From Rhizobium subbaraonis (GTDB lineage Bacteria; Pseudomonadota; Alphaproteobacteria; Rhizobiales; Rhizobiaceae), in the NCBI RefSeq assembly GCF_900220975.1, contig NZ_OBQD01000018.1, forward strand, positions 1 through 64,000: a stretch of 64,000 bases of DNA, in the 5' to 3' direction. Every line of letters starts with the position of its first letter. Within the stretch, counting starts at the first letter, position 1. This document shows positions 40,365 through 51,065 of this stretch, piece after piece. Position numbers and translations under genes: made by a program. The notes beneath the pieces are model-generated. The model made no database searches and had not been told where the DNA came from. It saw only the letters and a program-made list of their open reading frames with translations.

Positions 40365-42101
40365 TCAAGCCGCGGCGCGTCCCGTTTCTTGACCGCCCCG
40401 CCCGCCGGCGGCGTAGTCCGACTTCACGGACGATCCGTCTTCGCGCTGGACGGCGCGGCGGTTCAGCTTGAACAAGCTGACCAGTTGCGCAAGGGCGTCG
40501 GCGCCCTGCGCCAGCGTGCTGCTGATGGCCGTCGTCCGGGCGCTCATGGCAGCGTTCTGCTGCGTCATCTGGTCGAGCCGGTTGACGGCCTTGCTGATGT
40601 CGTTGAGACCTGTCGTCTGTTCGTCGGCAGCCTTGGCGATGTTGTCGACATTGCCGTCGATATCCTTCACCAGCACGTCGATTTGCTTCAGTGCCTCGCC
40701 GGTCTTGCCGACCAGTCTCACGCCTTCCAGAACGCCCGCACCCGAGTTGTTGATCAGCGTCTTGATTTCCTTTGCAGCGTTTGCGGAGCGTTGGGCAAGC
40801 TCGCGCACTTCCTGAGCGACAACGGCAAATCCCTTGCCCGCATCGCCTGCACGTGCCGCCTCCACACCTGCGTTGAGCGCCAGGAGATTCGTCTGGAATG
40901 CGATCTCGTCGATGACGCCGATGATCTGGCTGATCTCGCGCGAGGCAGTCTCGATGCGCTGCATGGCATCGACCGTCTGCTGGACGACCTCCGTCGATGC
41001 GGCTGTCGATGCCCGCGCCCTCTGGACGAGCTGGCGCGTCTCCTTCGTGTTCTCTGTCGACGAGTGGACAGTCCGGGTGATCTCGCCGAGAGCCACGGAA
41101 GTCTCCTCGAGGGCCGCTGCCTGCTCGCGGGAGCGCTCAGCCAGAAGCTCGGAGGCCTCGCGGACTTCCCGGCTGCTTCTGCTGAGGTCTCCTGTCTGGC
41201 CCAGCACGTTGACCAGCGTCTTTTGAAACTCGCCGATCGACTTGTTGAAATCCCTTCGCAGCCTTTCGAATTCGCCGACGAACGGCTGGTCCAGCGTGAT
41301 GCGGATATTGCATTGAGAAAGCCGTTCCAGCGCCGCGCCGAGCTCTTCTACCGCATGCATCCGTTCTGTCACGTCGAGCGCGAACTTGACGACTTTGCAC
41401 ACCCTTCCCTTCTCGTCGATGATCGGATTGTAGGATGCCTGGATGAAGACGCGCCTACCGCCCTTTGCGAGCCTCATGAACTGCCCGGTGGAAAACCGCC
41501 CCGCCCGAAGCTCTTCCCAGAATTCGCGATATTCCCGCGAAAGTGCATATCCCTCCTCGCAGAACATCGAGTGATGCTGACCGACGATTTCCTCCGCGTC
41601 GTAGCCGAGCGCTGCCAGGAAGTTCTCGTTGGCCCGAAGAATCCTTCCATCGGGACTGAATTCGATCATGGCTTGCGCCCGCGAAAGCGCTTCCAGCTTG
41701 CCTTCGTCCTCGACGCTCTTGCGCTTGATCGCGGTTATGTCCGTGGCGATCTTGACCACCTTGTAGGGCTTGCCGCGGCGGAAGACGGGATTGTACGAAG
41801 CCTCGATCCAGATCTCCTGGCCGTTCTTCGCCCGGCGCTGGTACTGGCACTGGTCATATTCGCCGCGCGCCAGCTTTGCCCAGAACGCCCTGTATTCAGG
41901 CGAAGCGGCTTCGTCCGCAAGCACGAACATGCTGTGGTGACGGCCGACGATCTCGGACCGCTGATAGCCCAATGCCCTACAGAAATTGTCATTCGCCGTC
42001 AGGATGTTGCCCGCCAGATCGAACTCGATGATGGCCTGCGACCGGCTCAGGGCCTCAAGCACGGCTAAGGCATCCAGGCCGAAATTCGGAAAGCGAGACA
42101 T
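40365..42101 (-). CDS. Soluble methyl-accepting chemotaxis protein with two PAS domains (578 aa)
   Basis: ATG 42101 is the start consistent with the PAS fold; the 20 codons before it read poorly. PAS1 occupies about 10-125 (AIIEFDLAGNILTANDNFCR, ALGYQRSEIVGRHHSMFV) and PAS2 about 130-250 with near-identical layout (AMIEFSPDGRILRANENFLA). The MCP signalling domain spans about 310-550 and has the hairpin tip EIAFQTNLLALNAGVEAARA. There is no TM helix or HAMP, so it should be cytoplasmic, like McpY of S. meliloti. PAS domains might bind flavin or heme to sense redox or oxygen; ligand is unknown. Confidence 0.92.
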   Translation of the reverse strand: MSRFPNFGLDALAVLEALSRSQAIIEFDLAGNILTANDNFCRALGYQRSEIVGRHHSMFVLADEAASPEYRAFWAKLARGEYDQCQYQRRAKNGQEIWIEASYNPVFRRGKPYKVVKIATDITAIKRKSVEDEGKLEALSRAQAMIEFSPDGRILRANENFLAALGYDAEEIVGQHHSMFCEEGYALSREYREFWEELRAGRFSTGQFMRLAKGGRRVFIQASYNPIIDEKGRVCKVVKFALDVTERMHAVEELGAALERLSQCNIRITLDQPFVGEFERLRRDFNKSIGEFQKTLVNVLGQTGDLSRSSREVREASELLAERSREQAAALEETSVALGEITRTVHSSTENTKETRQLVQRARASTAASTEVVQQTVDAMQRIETASREISQIIGVIDEIAFQTNLLALNAGVEAARAGDAGKGFAVVAQEVRELAQRSANAAKEIKTLINNSGAGVLEGVRLVGKTGEALKQIDVLVKDIDGNVDNIAKAADEQTTGLNDISKAVNRLDQMTQQNAAMSARTTAISSTLAQGADALAQLVSLFKLNRRAVQREDGSSVKSDYAAGGRGGQETGRAAA

Positions 42102-42287
42102 TTTCTTTGGACTCCCACGATAACGAGCGTCTCGGTCGGGGCACCTTCGAGGAAGAGGCATGGCCGCGCGCTGCAGACAAACTAGTGGGACACCGTTAAT
42201 TAGCGATTAAGTATATCCTTCAATCCCCTATGTCGGGTTGAGCGGCATTGGCGGGGGCGGTACGGCTGGCCCCCACGCTCACCGCAA

Positions 42288-43217
42288 TCAGGGATTGGCG
42301 ACGCGGAAAGTGTCGCAGTCCTGGACGCGGCCGCTGTCGAAGCCGCGCTTGAACCAGCGCATGCGCTGTTCGGCCGTGCCGTGGTTGAAGCTTTCCGGCA
42401 CGACATAGCCCTGCATGCGTTTCTGGATAGTGTCGTCGCCGATCTGCACGGCGGCGTTCAGCGCCTCCTGCAGATCGCCGGTCTCCAGCAGCCCCTTCTG
42501 CTCGGTATACTTGCCCCAGATGCCGGCATAGCAATCGGCCTGCAGCTCGACGCGGATCGACATCTGGTTGGCCTCGGCTTCGCTCATGCTCTGCCGGGCG
42601 CGGTTGAACTGCGGCAGGACGCCGGTCAGGTTCTGGACGTGATGGCCGACCTCGTGGGCGACGACGTAGGCCTGGGCGAAATCACCGGCCGCATCGAAGC
42701 GGTTGGCCAGTTCGTCGAAGAAGCTCATGTCCAGATAGACCTTGCGGTCGCCGGGGCAGTAGAACGGTCCGGAAGCCGCCGAAGCGAAGCCGCAGGCGGA
42801 CTGGATGCTGCCGGAAAACAGCACGAGCTTCGGCTCCTGATAGTTTTCGCCGCTGGCTTGGAAGATGCCGTTCCAGACGTCCTCGGTCTCGGCAAGGACC
42901 GTCGCCATGAACTGCTTGGTCTCCTCCTGGGCCGGCGAGTTGGAGCGCGTGGCGCTTTCGGTCTGTTCGAAGCCCGGCAGGTTCGCCTGGCCGCCGCCCT
43001 GACCCAGCACCTGCAGCAGGTCGATCCCCATCATCTTGAGGACGAAATAGATCACGACGAGGAAGATGATCGTGCCGATGCTCAGGCCGCCGCCGGCCCG
43101 GCGCGGCCCGCCGCCCATCGGAATACGGAAGCCGCCGCCACGGCCGAAGCCGCCCGGCCCGCCCGCACCGCGCTGATCCTCGACGTTGCTGGACTGACGG
43201 CGTCCCTTCCACTCCAT
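42288..43217 (-). CDS. YpfJ-type neutral zinc metallopeptidase (309 aa)
   Basis: A Gly/Arg-rich N-terminus (1-45), one TM helix (about 46-64, IGTIIFLVVIYFVLKMMGID), then the peptidase domain. The zinc motif HEVGH is at 188-192 (AYVVAHEVGHHVQNLTGV). Other family marks are CGFASAASGPFYCPGDRKVY, and the C-terminal DTIQKRMQGYVVPESFNHGT with AEQRMRWFKRGFDSG. It is of usual length and probably acts at the inner membrane facing the periplasm. Substrate unknown. It stands alone on the minus strand. Confidence 0.93.
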   Translation of the reverse strand: MEWKGRRQSSNVEDQRGAGGPGGFGRGGGFRIPMGGGPRRAGGGLSIGTIIFLVVIYFVLKMMGIDLLQVLGQGGGQANLPGFEQTESATRSNSPAQEETKQFMATVLAETEDVWNGIFQASGENYQEPKLVLFSGSIQSACGFASAASGPFYCPGDRKVYLDMSFFDELANRFDAAGDFAQAYVVAHEVGHHVQNLTGVLPQFNRARQSMSEAEANQMSIRVELQADCYAGIWGKYTEQKGLLETGDLQEALNAAVQIGDDTIQKRMQGYVVPESFNHGTAEQRMRWFKRGFDSGRVQDCDTFRVANP

Positions 43218-43391: not shown

Positions 43392-44036
43392 TCACCATCG
43401 CAGGCATAACCGTCCAAGCAACGCGCCGAGACTTGCCAGAATGGCAATGGCAAGCGGGTACCAGACGGCAACGAAGAGCGGGGAATCGTCAGGGCAATGG
43501 GCGGCATAGAAGGTTGCGGCGATCCCGCCCGCCAGAAGCCCCGTCACCGCGCCTGCCGCAGTCGCGTTGACAGGCGCGCCGTGCCGCATGGCGAGGAGCA
43601 ACACGACAAGGGGAATGCCCCCGATGAGGGGAACAAAGGTCAGGCACACGGTGCTGTTGGTCCCGACCAGCCGGGCAGTCCAGTTGGTCGACGGCACTGC
43701 GACCAACTCCAGCAGCACGGAGAAGGCTAGCAGAAAGGGCGCCACCAGCATGCCGGAAAGCGCCGCCCGCAAGTCTCCGCCCGGCCGCGAGACCGCGACG
43801 GCGAGCCTGTAAGCGGCAACGGCCAGCGCGATCGTGAAGACGAATTTAAACACGAAGCGCACTGTGGAAAGCGCCTCCTGGGCATCAGGGCGCGGCCCGA
43901 GCAGCACGAAAAACACGCCCGCGGCCACGAGCACCGCGGCTGCGACCGCTGCTATCCAGGCACGCCCCAACGGCAAGCCTGGACGCCGCGTATCGGCGGC
44001 AAGCGCCTTGATGAGTTCGTTCGTCTCCATTCTCAT
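43392..44036 (-). CDS. nrsF: NrsF/DUF1109 anti-sigma membrane protein (214 aa)
   Basis: Start ATG overlaps the sigF stop by 4 nt (ATGA), so the pair is translationally coupled. A short cytoplasmic N-terminus (ELIKALAADTRRPGLPLGRA) precedes six TM helices. The fold and size match the NrsF (DUF1109) family. In Caulobacter NrsF holds SigF at the membrane and releases it in response to metal stress through periplasmic-side Cys residues. Here Cys occur at TNSTVCLTF, AAHCPDDS and LGRLCLRW; which ones matter was not determined. Confidence 0.9.
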   Translation of the reverse strand: MRMETNELIKALAADTRRPGLPLGRAWIAAVAAAVLVAAGVFFVLLGPRPDAQEALSTVRFVFKFVFTIALAVAAYRLAVAVSRPGGDLRAALSGMLVAPFLLAFSVLLELVAVPSTNWTARLVGTNSTVCLTFVPLIGGIPLVVLLLAMRHGAPVNATAAGAVTGLLAGGIAATFYAAHCPDDSPLFVAVWYPLAIAILASLGALLGRLCLRW

Positions 44037-44566
44037 GTCCTTCCGAACCGCTTGGCGATCGCCGCCAGCCCACGGTGCAGCGCGACCCGCACAGCCGTCT
44101 CCTTCATCCCAAGGTCCCGCGCCGTCTCCTGGATCGAACTCCCCTCGATCGAGACCGCCGTCACCACCGATCGCTGACCGGGCGTCAACACCTCCAGCGC
44201 CCGGTCGATCTCCCAGCCCTGCGGTACCTCGACCTGCATGGCCTCGATCTCCTCCAGGGCCGGACTGTCGGCGAGCGGCAGACGGCCGTGGCGGCGAATG
44301 GCATCGATCAGCTTGTGGTTGGCTATGGCGAAGATCCAGGGTCTGACCGGTTCGCCACTACGCCAGGTGTGCCGTTTCAGGTGAATGGCAAGCAAAGTTT
44401 CCTGAACGACATCTTCCACGTCGAGGGTTCCATGCCTGACTTTCCGCCTGAGCCACGTCCGCAACAGCTTCGCCACCGCATCGAGAAACGCGACATAGGC
44501 GCGCTCATCGCCCTCGATCGCCGCGATCAGCATCTGCTCCAGAATGCGCTCCTCCCCTTTCTCCAA
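44033..44566 (-). CDS. sigF: ECF RNA polymerase sigma factor, SigF type (177 aa)
   Basis: The start is TTG 44566, with AGGAG 7 nt upstream; no ATG is better placed. Region 2 (about 35-95) is RKVRHGTLDVEDVVQETLLA and AWIFAIANHKLIDAI-like (RPWIFAIANHKLIDAIRRHG). Region 4 (about 120-175) is LEVLTPGQRSVVTAVSIEGS and ETARDLGMKETAVRVALHRG. A GTAACG-N16-CGAA promoter precedes it, suggesting autoregulation. Coupled to nrsF and divergent from the buf operon, it probably drives that operon under metal stress, as SigF does in Caulobacter. Confidence 0.92.
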   Translation of the reverse strand: MEKGEERILEQMLIAAIEGDERAYVAFLDAVAKLLRTWLRRKVRHGTLDVEDVVQETLLAIHLKRHTWRSGEPVRPWIFAIANHKLIDAIRRHGRLPLADSPALEEIEAMQVEVPQGWEIDRALEVLTPGQRSVVTAVSIEGSSIQETARDLGMKETAVRVALHRGLAAIAKRFGRT

Positions 44567-44583
44567 GCTGCTTCTCCTGTCTG

Positions 44584-44609
44584 TTCGTCCGGGAGGTTCG
44601 TTTCGTTAC
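44584..44609 (-). promoter_or_regulatory. ECF-type promoter of sigF-nrsF
   Basis: On the minus strand GTAACG (44609-44604), 16-nt spacer, CGAA (44587-44584). It matches the promoter type known for SigF in Caulobacter. The -10 is only about 18 nt from the TTG start, so the leader is very short. Confidence 0.6.
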
Positions 44610-44673
44610 AGGTCGCGCACGATATTTGCCCTTGGCCGTCCCCGGCAATCACGAAGTCGTGTTCACCGGCAGT

Positions 44674-44698
44674 GTAACGCAAGCCGGCCCCGAACGAA
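44674..44698 (+). promoter_or_regulatory. ECF-type promoter of the buf operon
   Basis: GTAACG (44674-44679), 15-nt spacer, CGAA (44695-44698), 55 nt before bufA1. It has the same hexamers as the divergent sigF promoter, with a spacer one nucleotide shorter. Confidence 0.6.
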
Positions 44699-44753
44699 AA
44701 AGCCGATGTGCGTCATGTGGCGCATCGAAGCAAAACGCTCTGGAGACTGAGAC

Positions 44754-45077
44754 ATGACAACACGTTCAGCAGTAAGCGCCGCGGTTCTGGCAGGCGCCGT
44801 CGCATCGGCACTTTCCTCCCTGGCACTCGCCGGCCCCCTGACGGAAGCCGACGTCAAGGCCGCTATGGATGGCGGCAAGGAGAAGTGCTTCGGCGTCGCG
44901 ATGAAGGGGCAGAACGATTGCGCCGCTGGCCCCGGCACGACCTGCCAGGGCACCTCGACCGTCGATTATCAGGGCAATGCCTGGAAGTTCGTGGACGGCG
45001 GAACCTGCGCGACAATGCAACTGCCTGATGGCCGCAAGGGCTCGATGGAGCCGCTCGACCGCGACATTCCGGCCTGA
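44754..45077 (+). CDS. bufA1: Bufferin-type precursor peptide BufA1 (DUF2282, 107 aa)
   Basis: ATG 44754, with CTGGAGACTGAGAC upstream. A signal peptide ([19 protein letters not shown], cleaved near 27) leads to an 80-residue mature part with exactly four Cys (45, 56, 64 and 85). They lie in [25 protein letters not shown] and GGTCATM. This layout is the DUF2282/BufA1 family: exported RiPP precursors whose Cys are converted by the MNIO enzyme BufB and which then sequester copper. First gene of the operon and downstream of an ECF promoter. The modification chemistry is inferred from the family. Confidence 0.9.
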
Positions 45078-45108
45078 TCCAAGCGCATTGAAAGCGGAGG
45101 GAATGATG

Positions 45109-46023
45109 ATGAGACCGAACGTCATTGCGGCCGGGCATCGCGCCCTTCGCTTTCCCCGCCACTGTATCGGCGGCATGGCGGGAACGAGCTTCAAGCACGA
45201 GCATCTGCCCGCAATCCTTGAGGAGGGCGTCCGGCGTGGTTTCTTCGAGGTCCATGCGGAAAACTACATGGGAGAAGGCGGCCCACCGCATCGCGCCCTG
45301 ACCCGCATCCGCCAGGATTATCCCGTCTCCATCCATGGCGTATGCATGTCGATCGGCGGCCCGCAGCCCCTGGACAAGCAGCACCTCGCGCGCTTCAAGA
45401 CGCTGATCGAACGCTACGAACCGGCGCTCGTTTCCGAGCACCTCGCCTGGTCCACGCACGAAACCACCTATTTCAACGACCTGCTGCCGCTGCCCTACAA
45501 CGCAGCCACGATGCAGCACGTGGCCGATCACATCGACGAGGTGCAGGAGACGATCGGCCGGCAGATCCTGCTGGAAAACCCTTCCAGCTATCTGACCTTC
45601 ACCGAATCGACGATGACCGAGACCGCATTCATCCGGGAGCTGGCGAGACGGACCGGCTGCGGCCTGCTGCTCGACGTCAACAATGTCTTCGTCTCGGCCA
45701 CCAACCTCGGGACGTCGGCGCTCGGCTACCTCGCAGACTACCCGCTCGAATTCGTCCGGGAGATCCATCTCGCCGGGCACGCGGTCCAGAGCGACGAGAA
45801 CGGCGAGCCCCTGCTGATCGACAGCCACGACGGCCCGGTCTGCGATGCGGTCTGGGCGCTGTACGAAACGGTTTTGGCCAGGACCGGACCGATCGCCACA
45901 CTCGTCGAATGGGACAGCGCCATACCGGACTGGCCAACGCTGACGCAGGAGGCCGCCGCCGCGCAGGCGATCCTGGACCGCACTGTCTCTTCCGACCGGA
46001 GGATACGCCGTGCGGCCGTCTAA
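45109..46023 (+). CDS. bufB: MNIO-family (DUF692) maturation enzyme BufB (304 aa)
   Basis: Three consecutive in-frame ATGs (45103, 45106, 45109) follow GGAGGG; the third has the best 7-8 nt spacing. A TIM-barrel of the multinuclear non-heme iron oxygenase family: [81 protein letters not shown] and LVEWDSAIP. The His, Glu, Asp and Asn residues are the likely iron ligands. It lies 31 nt after bufA1 and overlaps bufC by 14 nt. Its expected substrate is the BufA1 peptide. Confidence 0.92.
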
Positions 46024-46825
46024 CCTGAAGATCTCCGTGGACAGCGAGGCTGCACCCTATGCCGCGGATTTTGCCGGGCGCCTGCTCGATCCCGAAAGGC
46101 CTGCCCCGCCGGGCGTCACCGCCCCGGCCGGCAGTGCGGCGGCGCGGCGGTTCGGCATCTATCGCAACAACGTCACCGTCAGCCTGATCGAGGCGCTGGC
46201 GGCCGTCTTTCCGGCAACCCTGCGGATCACCGGGCCGGAATTCTTCCGGGCGATGGCCCGCTTTCACATCCGCGCAACGCCGCCGACCTCCCCGTTGCTC
46301 TTCGAGTACGGCCGCGACTTCCCGGCCTTCATCGAGCAGTACCCGCACGCCCGATCCATGCCATGGCTTGCCGATGTCGCGCGGATAGAGCGCGCCTGGC
46401 TGGATGCTTATCACGCCGCCGACGAGGCCGTTCTTGCCCCGGAATCGCTGGCCTGCGCCGCGCCGGAGGCGCTGGCGACGAGCCGTTTTGTCGCGCATCC
46501 GGCAACCCGCCTTCTCGCCTCGGATTATCCGGCATTCAGCATCTTTTCAGCCAACCGCGGGGACGCACCGGTCGGGCGGATTGAGACCAAGGAACCGGAA
46601 TGGACGCTTCTGACCCGTCCGCACCTCGGCGTCGAGGTTCGCAAGGTTTCGCCCGACGCGGCGAAGATGATCGCAAGCCTGATGGACGGCGTTCCGCTCG
46701 GGCGCGCGGCCGACGACACACTGGCCGCCTTTCCGAGTTTTGACCTGTCAGCCGCGATCGCCGGCTTCATCGAGGCCGGCGCCTTCCGCGGCTTCTCAGC
46801 CTACGGAGCACACGATGAAACATGA
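46010..46825 (+). CDS. bufC: BufC/DUF2063 partner of the MNIO enzyme (271 aa)
   Basis: GTG 46010 is preceded by GGAGG and overlaps bufB by 14 nt. The N-terminal half is the DUF2063 domain ([60 protein letters not shown]). A second domain from about 150 is alpha-beta ([20 protein letters not shown]). DUF2063 proteins pair with DUF692 enzymes and are thought to bind the precursor and present it to the enzyme. Its stop overlaps the doxX start by 11 nt. Confidence 0.9.
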
Positions 46826-47330
46826 ACCGACGCCGACGCAATCATCACCCGCGGGCCTCTCGGGAACCTTTGGACGGGCCTATGCGGGCATCGCCCATCT
46901 CGCCCCGCCGTCACTGGCACAGTTCGCCCTCCGGCTCGCGCTGGCGGTGCCCTTCTGGCGCTCCGGCATCAACAAATGGGACGGCTTCCTGCAACTGAAT
47001 GACGTGGCGATCCTGCTTTTTTCGACCGAGTTCCGCTTGCACCTGCCAGGGGGGCCGTACCCCTACCCGTTTCCCGCGACCGTCGCCTTCGCATCCGGCA
47101 TGGCGGAAATCGTCCTACCGGTTCTGCTGGTTCTTGGCCTTGCCTCCCGCGCGGCGGCACTCGCACTGTTGGCCATGACCCTCGTCATACAGCTGACCGT
47201 GCCGGATGGATGGCCGGTCCATGTGACATGGGCTGCGATGGCGCTCGCAATCATGGCGTGGGGGCCCGGCCGCTGGTCGATCGACCAGTTCGCCGGGATC
47301 GACCGTCTCGCATGTCGGCATTCGCCTTGA
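46815..47330 (+). CDS. DoxX family inner-membrane protein (171 aa)
   Basis: ATG 46815 overlaps bufC by 11 nt, and GGAG lies 7 nt upstream. The protein has four TM helices typical of DoxX: LAQFALRLALAVPFWRSGIN, FASGMAEIVLPVLLVLGLAS, ALLAMTLVIQLTVPDGWPVH and ITWAAMALAIMAW-like. DoxX proteins occur as the last gene of many bufferin-type operons, probably with an electron-transfer or membrane role. No quinone-binding motif could be assigned. It is the fourth and last gene of the operon. Confidence 0.9.
   Translation: MKHEPTPTQSSPAGLSGTFGRAYAGIAHLAPPSLAQFALRLALAVPFWRSGINKWDGFLQLNDVAILLFSTEFRLHLPGGPYPYPFPATVAFASGMAEIVLPVLLVLGLASRAAALALLAMTLVIQLTVPDGWPVHVTWAAMALAIMAWGPGRWSIDQFAGIDRLACRHSP

Positions 47331-47579: not shown

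Positions 47580-51065
<3,486 letters not shown>

Follow-up and report, generated by a model that had tools for sequence, protein, structure and literature searches.

Genes and predicted promoters of the locus

The window analysed here is a stretch of 64,000 nucleotides (nt) from Rhizobium subbaraonis (contig NZ_OBQD01000018.1), and the subject of this report is a predicted bufferin-1 system that it carries at positions 43392-47330. The system is composed of six compact genes, in which nrsF and sigF, on the minus strand, diverge from bufA, bufB, bufC and doxX (Table 1). The first-pass annotation of this DNA had placed it at 44033-47330, a range that holds for sigF and the buf genes and leaves out the anti-sigma gene nrsF (43392-44036). 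Every one of the six reading frames is intact, with overlaps of 14 nt between bufB and bufC and 11 nt between bufC and doxX, exactly as first annotated, and of 4 nt between sigF and nrsF. By eye, a GGAG stretch lies 5' of the bufA, bufB, bufC, doxX and sigF starts (GGAGG before the GTG of bufC), and the nrsF start is preceded by GGAAGGA only.

Table 1. Genes and predicted promoters of the divergent locus, in window coordinates
Feature	Positions	Strand	Support
nrsF (DUF1109), membrane anti-sigma factor, 214 amino acids	43392..44036	-	Pfam NrsF 181.8 bits
sigF, extracytoplasmic function (ECF) sigma factor, 177 amino acids, TTG start	44033..44566	-	Sigma70_r2 + r4_2
sigF-nrsF SigF-type promoter, TGTAAC-N17-CGAA, predicted	44584..44610 (44610-44584)	-	17 nt before sigF
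buf operon SigF-type promoter, TGTAAC-N16-CGAA, predicted	44673..44698	+	55 nt before bufA ATG
bufA, bufferin-1 precursor (DUF2282), 107 amino acids	44754..45077	+	Pfam DUF2282, conserved Cys
bufB, MNIO-family bufferin maturase (formerly DUF692), 306 amino acids	45103..46023	+	NCBIfam MNIO_BufB
bufC, DUF2063 partner protein (PME type 1), 271 amino acids, GTG start	46010..46825	+	Pfam DUF2063
doxX, DoxX-family membrane protein, 171 amino acids	46815..47330	+	Pfam DoxX

All six proteins pass the Pfam gathering cut-offs, and the five families named in the first-pass annotation (DUF2282, DUF692, DUF2063, DUF1109 and DoxX) were all recovered above them by profile search. BufA (DUF2282, 81.2 bits, cut-off 22.4) has a single hydrophobic segment at residues 7-25, signal-peptide-like as judged from hydropathy and by eye rather than with a dedicated predictor, and exactly four cysteines, C45, C56, C64 and C85, so that the signal peptide and cysteine count given beforehand both stand. 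These cysteines are present in 114, 112, 112 and 113 of 114 relatives, respectively, and 100 of the 114 have four cysteines exactly (starts picked by a simple rule). The AlphaFold2 model of BufA is of low confidence (predicted local distance difference test, pLDDT, 70.3); it gave nothing significant in a fold search and was left unused for the question of disulphide and modification.

BufB matches Pfam MbnB_TglH_ChrH with 350.2 bits (cut-off 25) and the NCBIfam equivalog MNIO_BufB with 382.4 bits (cut-off 310), and aligns with the solved structure PDB 3bww at an expectation value (E) of 4.4e-37. Its residues N193, D240 and H242 are 99% conserved among 114 sequences and, through the 3bww alignment and with an inferred one-residue offset between HvfB and 3bww, would correspond to N175, D242 and H244 of HvfB, which are essential (PMC13419390). 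Among named organisms, BufB is most similar to the proteins of 'Rhizobiales bacterium AFS054471' and 'Rhizobium sp. GN54' (88% identity), then to those of Mycoplana azooxidifex (86%), Ensifer/Sinorhizobium (72-79%) and others; a genome of the same genus, G004, shares its bufB with the Mycoplana locus, and the host would accordingly be a Mycoplana-like member of Rhizobiaceae. BufC matches DUF2063 with 85.4 bits (Pfam cut-off 27.2), and its single sequence found no match among solved structures at E up to 1. This genome contains a single DUF2282 match and a single MNIO match, an advantage for genetic work, since a mutant phenotype should then not be hidden by a paralogue.

SigF contains sigma region 4_2 (50.3 bits, Pfam cut-off 25.7) and region 2 (44.2 bits, cut-off 24) and reaches 198.2 bits with NCBIfam PRK12512.1, barely over the cut-off of 198. 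On the grounds of a layout common with the published RpoE7, and not of an ECF classifier, it appears to be of the Caulobacter SigF/Sinorhizobium meliloti RpoE7 type (group ECF16), and RpoE7, also ECF16, is its rhizobial counterpart. The sulphite-responsive RpoE1/RpoE4 of S. meliloti were ruled out in that role: both are ECF26 factors, and neither their anti-sigma type nor their promoters are the same. NrsF clears its Pfam cut-off of 26.8, and its C131 and C181 are kept in 46 and 45 of 48 relatives. Caulobacter NrsF has the same length, 214 amino acids, and two regulatory cysteines at the same numbers, 131 and 181 (PMC3511200).

The two predicted promoter boxes lie within one 187-nt intergenic gap and point in opposite directions; they can alternatively be written GTAACG-N15-CGAA (bufA) and GTAACG-N16-CGAA (sigF), and the GTAACG...CGAA first noticed at both divergent promoters is intact at each. 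The gap holds two of the eight TGTAAC-N16-17-CGAA matches in the genome, for which a simple Poisson estimate gives a chance of about 1e-7, so that two oppositely directed boxes in one gap would not be expected by chance. The form of the boxes agrees with the Caulobacter SigF motif, GTAACC-N16-CGAA (PMC3511200), and with a table of mapped S. meliloti promoters that includes rpoE7 and SMb20530 with the same TGTAAC...CGAA form (PMC6180224).

Conservation of the locus was followed in 120 loci, of which 80 were the best of 133 related stretches by BufB similarity and 40 came from DUF2282 matches in 61 genomes (this one included; all 40 match places outside this genome were used). Removal of four duplicates left 116 distinct loci. 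The sample is biased to complete operons and close relatives, its loci lack independence from one another, and some few are truncated at a contig end. Gene order was derived from stop-to-stop frames, whose overlaps jumble it in a small number of loci, so that the layout counts are minimum values; the odd orders in L062, L149 and L135 are artefacts of this kind. With that proviso, the exact layout, nrsF-sigF diverging from bufA-bufB-bufC-doxX, is found in at least 37 of the 116 loci, bufA-bufB-bufC are consecutive in at least 105 and doxX lies directly 3' of bufC in at least 103. The operon without a detected sigma pair accounts for 53/116 loci, and in three the gene-order census places sigF-nrsF downstream on the same strand. 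A DUF2282 match is present in 36 of the 61 genomes.

The relatives' promoter regions were scanned with the pattern GTAAC-N16/17-CGAA, which itself imposes the spacers of 16 or 17 nt. Among 43 loci in which sigF, nrsF or both lie upstream and diverge from buf (both genes detected in 41), a box precedes buf in 32, sigF in 31 and both in 24, and at least one is kept in 39, the boxless loci being L056, L084, L107 and L135; the reversed control pattern was found in 0/43. The remaining 73 loci comprise four in which the sigma pair lies 3' of doxX, 68 without a detected pair, and L140, where a very long bufA open frame shifts the scanned region and makes the locus not assessable. A box precedes buf in 4/4 of those with the pair 3' of doxX and in 5/68 of those without a detected pair (L066, L068, L072, L145 and L154), which may have their sigma factor at another place in the genome; the control gave 1/73.

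A few relatives depart from the common pattern. Genome G004, of the same genus, has two DUF2282 loci, L135 and L160, the first with an nrsF match upstream, sigF undetected and no exact promoter box. L084, L086 and L103 show two DUF2282-like matches ahead of one bufB, possibly tandem precursors, and L103 also has three separate bufC matches; this last locus (CP059262.1) is titled Exiguobacterium profundum, a metagenome-assembled genome, a name that is probably wrong, its BufB being 59% identical to that of the window. The betaproteobacterial BufB of L082 (Burkholderia paludis) is 62% identical to that of the window, a value that many alphaproteobacterial BufB proteins do not reach; this locus has its sigF/nrsF matches 3' of doxX and a box ahead of buf, and horizontal transfer is possible.

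Published counterparts and a proposed working

The system is not new, since the same divergon has been published in Caulobacter, in S. meliloti and in Cupriavidus metallidurans, a betaproteobacterium; what the window adds is a single-copy example of a SigF-bufferin divergon in Rhizobiaceae. In Caulobacter crescentus/vibrioides, sigF-nrsF and CC3254-CC3257 (CC3252-CC3257 as a whole) form a divergon with the same gene order, doxX included, and GTAAC...CGAA promoters (PMC3511200). Its genes, among them those for NrsF and DoxX, rise by 1.4 to 6.3 log2 units under copper across four conditions; for these two genes the values from rich-medium swarmer cells are significant only without a fold-change cut-off (PMC8224329). 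Caulobacter differs in having a second SigF-controlled operon, CC2907-CC2905, with DUF2282, DUF692 and DUF2063 (PMC3511200), against the single DUF2282 and MNIO genes of the window's genome. Its SigF regulon also includes a YedY/MsrP gene, whereas the two Oxidored_molyb loci of the present genome, with 1.5 kb flanks, contain no box; a link to MsrP/sulphite oxidase as in Caulobacter was not retained, neither Oxidored_molyb gene having one.

The closest rhizobial parallel is the rpoE7-ecfR7/SMb20530-SMb20527 divergon of S. meliloti, described in 2018 with both promoters mapped, DUF692 and DUF2063 named and CC3254-CC3257 called orthologous (PMC6180224). The first-pass view that the system is little studied in rhizobia is only partly true because of this publication. 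The S. meliloti locus has the same spacings as the window, TGTAAC-N17-CGAA and TGTAAC-N16-CGAA (its spacers were counted by eye), in reverse, however, the longer one lying before buf and the shorter one before the sigma gene, and, unlike that of the window, it lies on pSymB, as its SMb tags indicate.

The Cupriavidus gigPABT-rpoQ-rsqA genes, induced by copper and gold, likewise place an ECF sigma factor and a putative anti-sigma factor divergent from a signal-peptide protein with four cysteines (GigP), a metal-binding GigA, a DUF2063 GigB and a DoxX-like GigT (PMC10304878). They differ in lying on a chromid and in the other roles proposed for GigA and GigB, a proposal that predates publication of the bufferin chemistry (PMC10304878), and gig operons have since been recognised as bufferin clusters (PMC12452194). 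More distant is the Haemophilus hvfABCX system (captophorin/oxazolin), with a signal-peptide precursor, an MNIO enzyme, a partner containing a RiPP (ribosomally synthesised and post-translationally modified peptide) recognition element and a DoxX-like HvfX, whose product carries 5-thiooxazoles that bind copper (PMC13419390, PMC12668002). Its precursor has EGKCG repeats and is not a DUF2282 protein, and the relevant passages of these papers mention no sigma/anti-sigma pair (PMC13419390, PMC12668002). A survey of MNIO genes found them in bufferin clusters with genes for DUF2282, DUF2063, DoxX, a sigma factor and NrsF; in Buf1 only the two central cysteines are modified, the outer two forming a disulphide, and bufferin-1 binds both Cu(I) and Cu(II) (PMC12452194).

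Because Caulobacter has the same gene order together with a copper response, and because the survey supplies the cluster content, chemistry and copper binding, the locus is very probably the orthologue in Rhizobiaceae of the Caulobacter SigF-NrsF/bufferin-1 divergon, working as a copper-responsive peptide system. Gene families, layout and promoter footprints, together with what was published for Caulobacter, agree with the first-pass proposal of a SigF-NrsF-controlled bufferin-1 operon, whose thiooxazole modification and copper buffering are carried over from relatives.

A working can be proposed that starts from the genes, families, conserved residues, boxes and conserved layout observed at the locus and takes copper as signal and ligand, the thiooxazoles, the disulphide and the order of events by analogy from the published systems. 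NrsF, a multi-span membrane protein, would restrain SigF and let it go once a stress in the periplasm acts through C131 and C181; the likeliest such stress is copper, oxidants or other thiol-reactive metals being possible too. From the paired GTAAC/CGAA promoters the freed SigF would then drive transcription of bufABC-doxX as well as of its own operon. BufB, an iron enzyme working with BufC, would oxidise the central C56 and C64 of BufA to 5-thiooxazoles before Sec export, and in the periplasm the peptide would form a C45-C85 disulphide and bind copper. DoxX is placed in this scheme, speculatively, as an inner-membrane accessory that is most likely redox-linked.

The DoxX partner

Among the core genes of this widespread operon for copper defence, doxX is the one still without an explanation, and the first-pass statement that its role is open agrees with papers of 2025-2026, which call it uncharacterised or only speculate on it (PMC12452194, PMC12668002, PMC13419390). 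For bufferin clusters, protection from other stresses has been suggested (PMC12452194); a possible part in copper binding was put forward for the DoxX-like protein (PMC12668002); HvfX is called uncharacterised (PMC13419390); and for Cupriavidus a quinone-linked oxidation of Cu(I) by GigT and GigP was proposed (PMC10304878). In the titles, abstract openings and passages of the literature searched, with few subscription journals among it, no experimental role for a bufferin-linked DoxX was found.

The protein of the window is a member of its family (56.3 bits, Pfam cut-off 23.6). Its AlphaFold2 model has a mean pLDDT of 93.5 and shows a shorter N-terminal helix at residues 15-29 followed by four long ones (18-21 residues each), more than the two segments that exceed the threshold of a hydropathy scan. 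Twelve residues, R40, S50, K54, G57, E98, P102, G108, R112, W139, G150, G152 and D157, are conserved in at least 96% of 104 relatives, and seven of them (E98, G108, R112, W139, G150, G152 and D157) in 100%, rounded; no cysteine reaches 85% in the same set.

Likenesses to other proteins are weak. All 49 of 49 aligned DoxX sequences match DoxD at E up to 1, the best at 1.7e-6, with the window's own at E 0.0033 and 17.8 bits, under the cut-off of 22.7; MauE is matched by 31 of the 49 at E up to 1. DoxD is the small subunit of thiosulphate:quinone oxidoreductase. A Foldseek search with the DoxX model gave no significant solved fold, and among the best 50 of its 58 matches at least 12 are chains of vitamin K-dependent carboxylase (template modelling, TM, score by query 0.35-0.52, E 2.7-8.4, non-significant), no other target in those 50 exceeding TM 0.36. 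This carboxylase uses a hydroquinone. Against solved structures, the single sequence had no match at E up to 1 and the profile no credible match at E up to 10 (three matches, E 0.97-1.3). The DoxD and carboxylase likenesses are thus faint leads to quinone chemistry, and not evidence for it.

The position of doxX directly after bufC in at least 103 of the 116 loci and the seven invariant residues could suggest that DoxX belongs to maturation or copper handling rather than being an independent stress gene, for instance by oxidising the outer cysteine pair or bound Cu(I) and passing the electrons to quinone. A redox role of this kind would also fit the DoxD matches in all aligned sequences, the non-significant carboxylase fold matches and the similar idea in print for GigT (PMC10304878). 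Against it, no cysteine is well conserved in DoxX, neither sequence nor fold searches returned a credible solved relative, and thiooxazole formation on another precursor has been reconstituted without a DoxX protein (PMC12668002); on balance, a place in maturation or copper handling is rather unlikely. A more specific form of the idea, in which the bufferin-linked DoxX would be a quinone-dependent membrane oxidoreductase acting on the exported peptide (at the outer cysteine pair or at peptide-bound Cu(I)), delivering electrons to the respiratory chain and using R40, S50, K54, E98, R112, W139 and D157 as its quinone/substrate site, is decidedly doubtful; if true, the operon would couple copper buffering to copper oxidation via DoxX.

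Copper and the alternative signals

Several observations weigh against reading the locus as a SigF-controlled, copper-responsive bufferin divergon. Four of its proteins fall short of the corresponding NCBIfam equivalog models: NrsF scores 106.5 bits with AntiSigF_NrsF (cut-off 300), the best match of BufA is BufA2 with 20.3 bits (cut-off 60), and BufC and DoxX are below the cut-offs of HvfC and HvfX. For BufA this appears not to be peculiar to the window, as, of 50 precursors including its own, 26 match BufA2 (best E 1.6e-6) and a single one an unrelated repeat model, these being the only NCBIfam models matched. The genome contains two NrsF matches, and the second NrsF-like protein has no evident adjoining sigma gene, for which reason the anti-sigma pairing might be less simple than the locus suggests. 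Of the three nearest relatives (BufB 86-88% identical), only L054 has both boxes in the exact pattern, L055 having that on the sigF side and L056 neither. Finally, fusions to rpoE7 and SMb20530 of S. meliloti, the orthologous genes, are not induced by H2O2, CdCl2 or K2CrO4, copper not being among the inducers listed (PMC6180224), and because of this the inducer may differ between lineages.

The promoter motif itself is not enriched in the genome either: TGTAAC-N16-17-CGAA has 8 matches against 15 for its reversed control, and the other form, GTAACS-N15-17-CGAA, 50 against 78. A single box would mean little on that account, and a genome-wide SigF regulon drawn from the motif, with fewer matches than the reversed control, was dropped as uninformative. 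Each of the six TGTAAC-N16-17-CGAA sites outside the divergon has an open reading frame (ORF) of more than 60 codons starting within 200 nt, and all six are themselves covered, on one strand, by an ORF of 100 codons or longer (no search for families was run there); the sigF box likewise lies inside an opposite-strand ORF.

The same chemistry could also serve a signal and ligand that are not mainly copper, with another thiol-reactive stress (gold, silver, cadmium, chromate or oxidants) inducing the operon and being buffered by the peptide. The Caulobacter SigF genes do respond to dichromate (PMC3511200), with chromate and cadmium restated later (PMC8224329), the Cupriavidus gig genes respond to gold as well as to copper (PMC10304878), and MerC fusions hint at other metals (PMC12452194). 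However, a Caulobacter sigF::Tn5 mutant is sensitive to copper, its tolerance to chromate and cadmium being reported as unchanged (PMC8224329), bufferin-1 binds copper in both oxidation states (PMC12452194), and the S. meliloti fusions are silent to cadmium, chromate and H2O2 alike (PMC6180224), which makes a mainly non-copper system unlikely. That the operon is decayed or unexpressed in this strain, or that BufA works unmodified, is very improbable, for, even if the motif taken alone is no rarity here, the six frames are intact, the iron-site and cysteine positions are conserved, GGAG precedes every start but that of nrsF, and the two promoter boxes are whole.

The second NrsF-like protein (G000:C43:64742-65338; L184:3701-4378) is divergent, with 52.8 bits and 225 amino acids, and by eye has no second regulatory cysteine. 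A gene for a DUF305 protein (L184:2381-2953) lies near its own, about 100 nt upstream of which there is a GTAAC-N17-CGAA box, of a kind common by chance; the protein might be an orphan anti-sigma factor under SigF control.

The genes flanking the divergon are ordinary. On the minus strand, beyond nrsF, are those for a putative neutral zinc metallopeptidase (42288-43217) and a PAS-containing chemotaxis protein (40365-42161), and the downstream neighbour of doxX, on the plus strand (47583-51065), codes for the large chain of carbamoyl-phosphate synthase.

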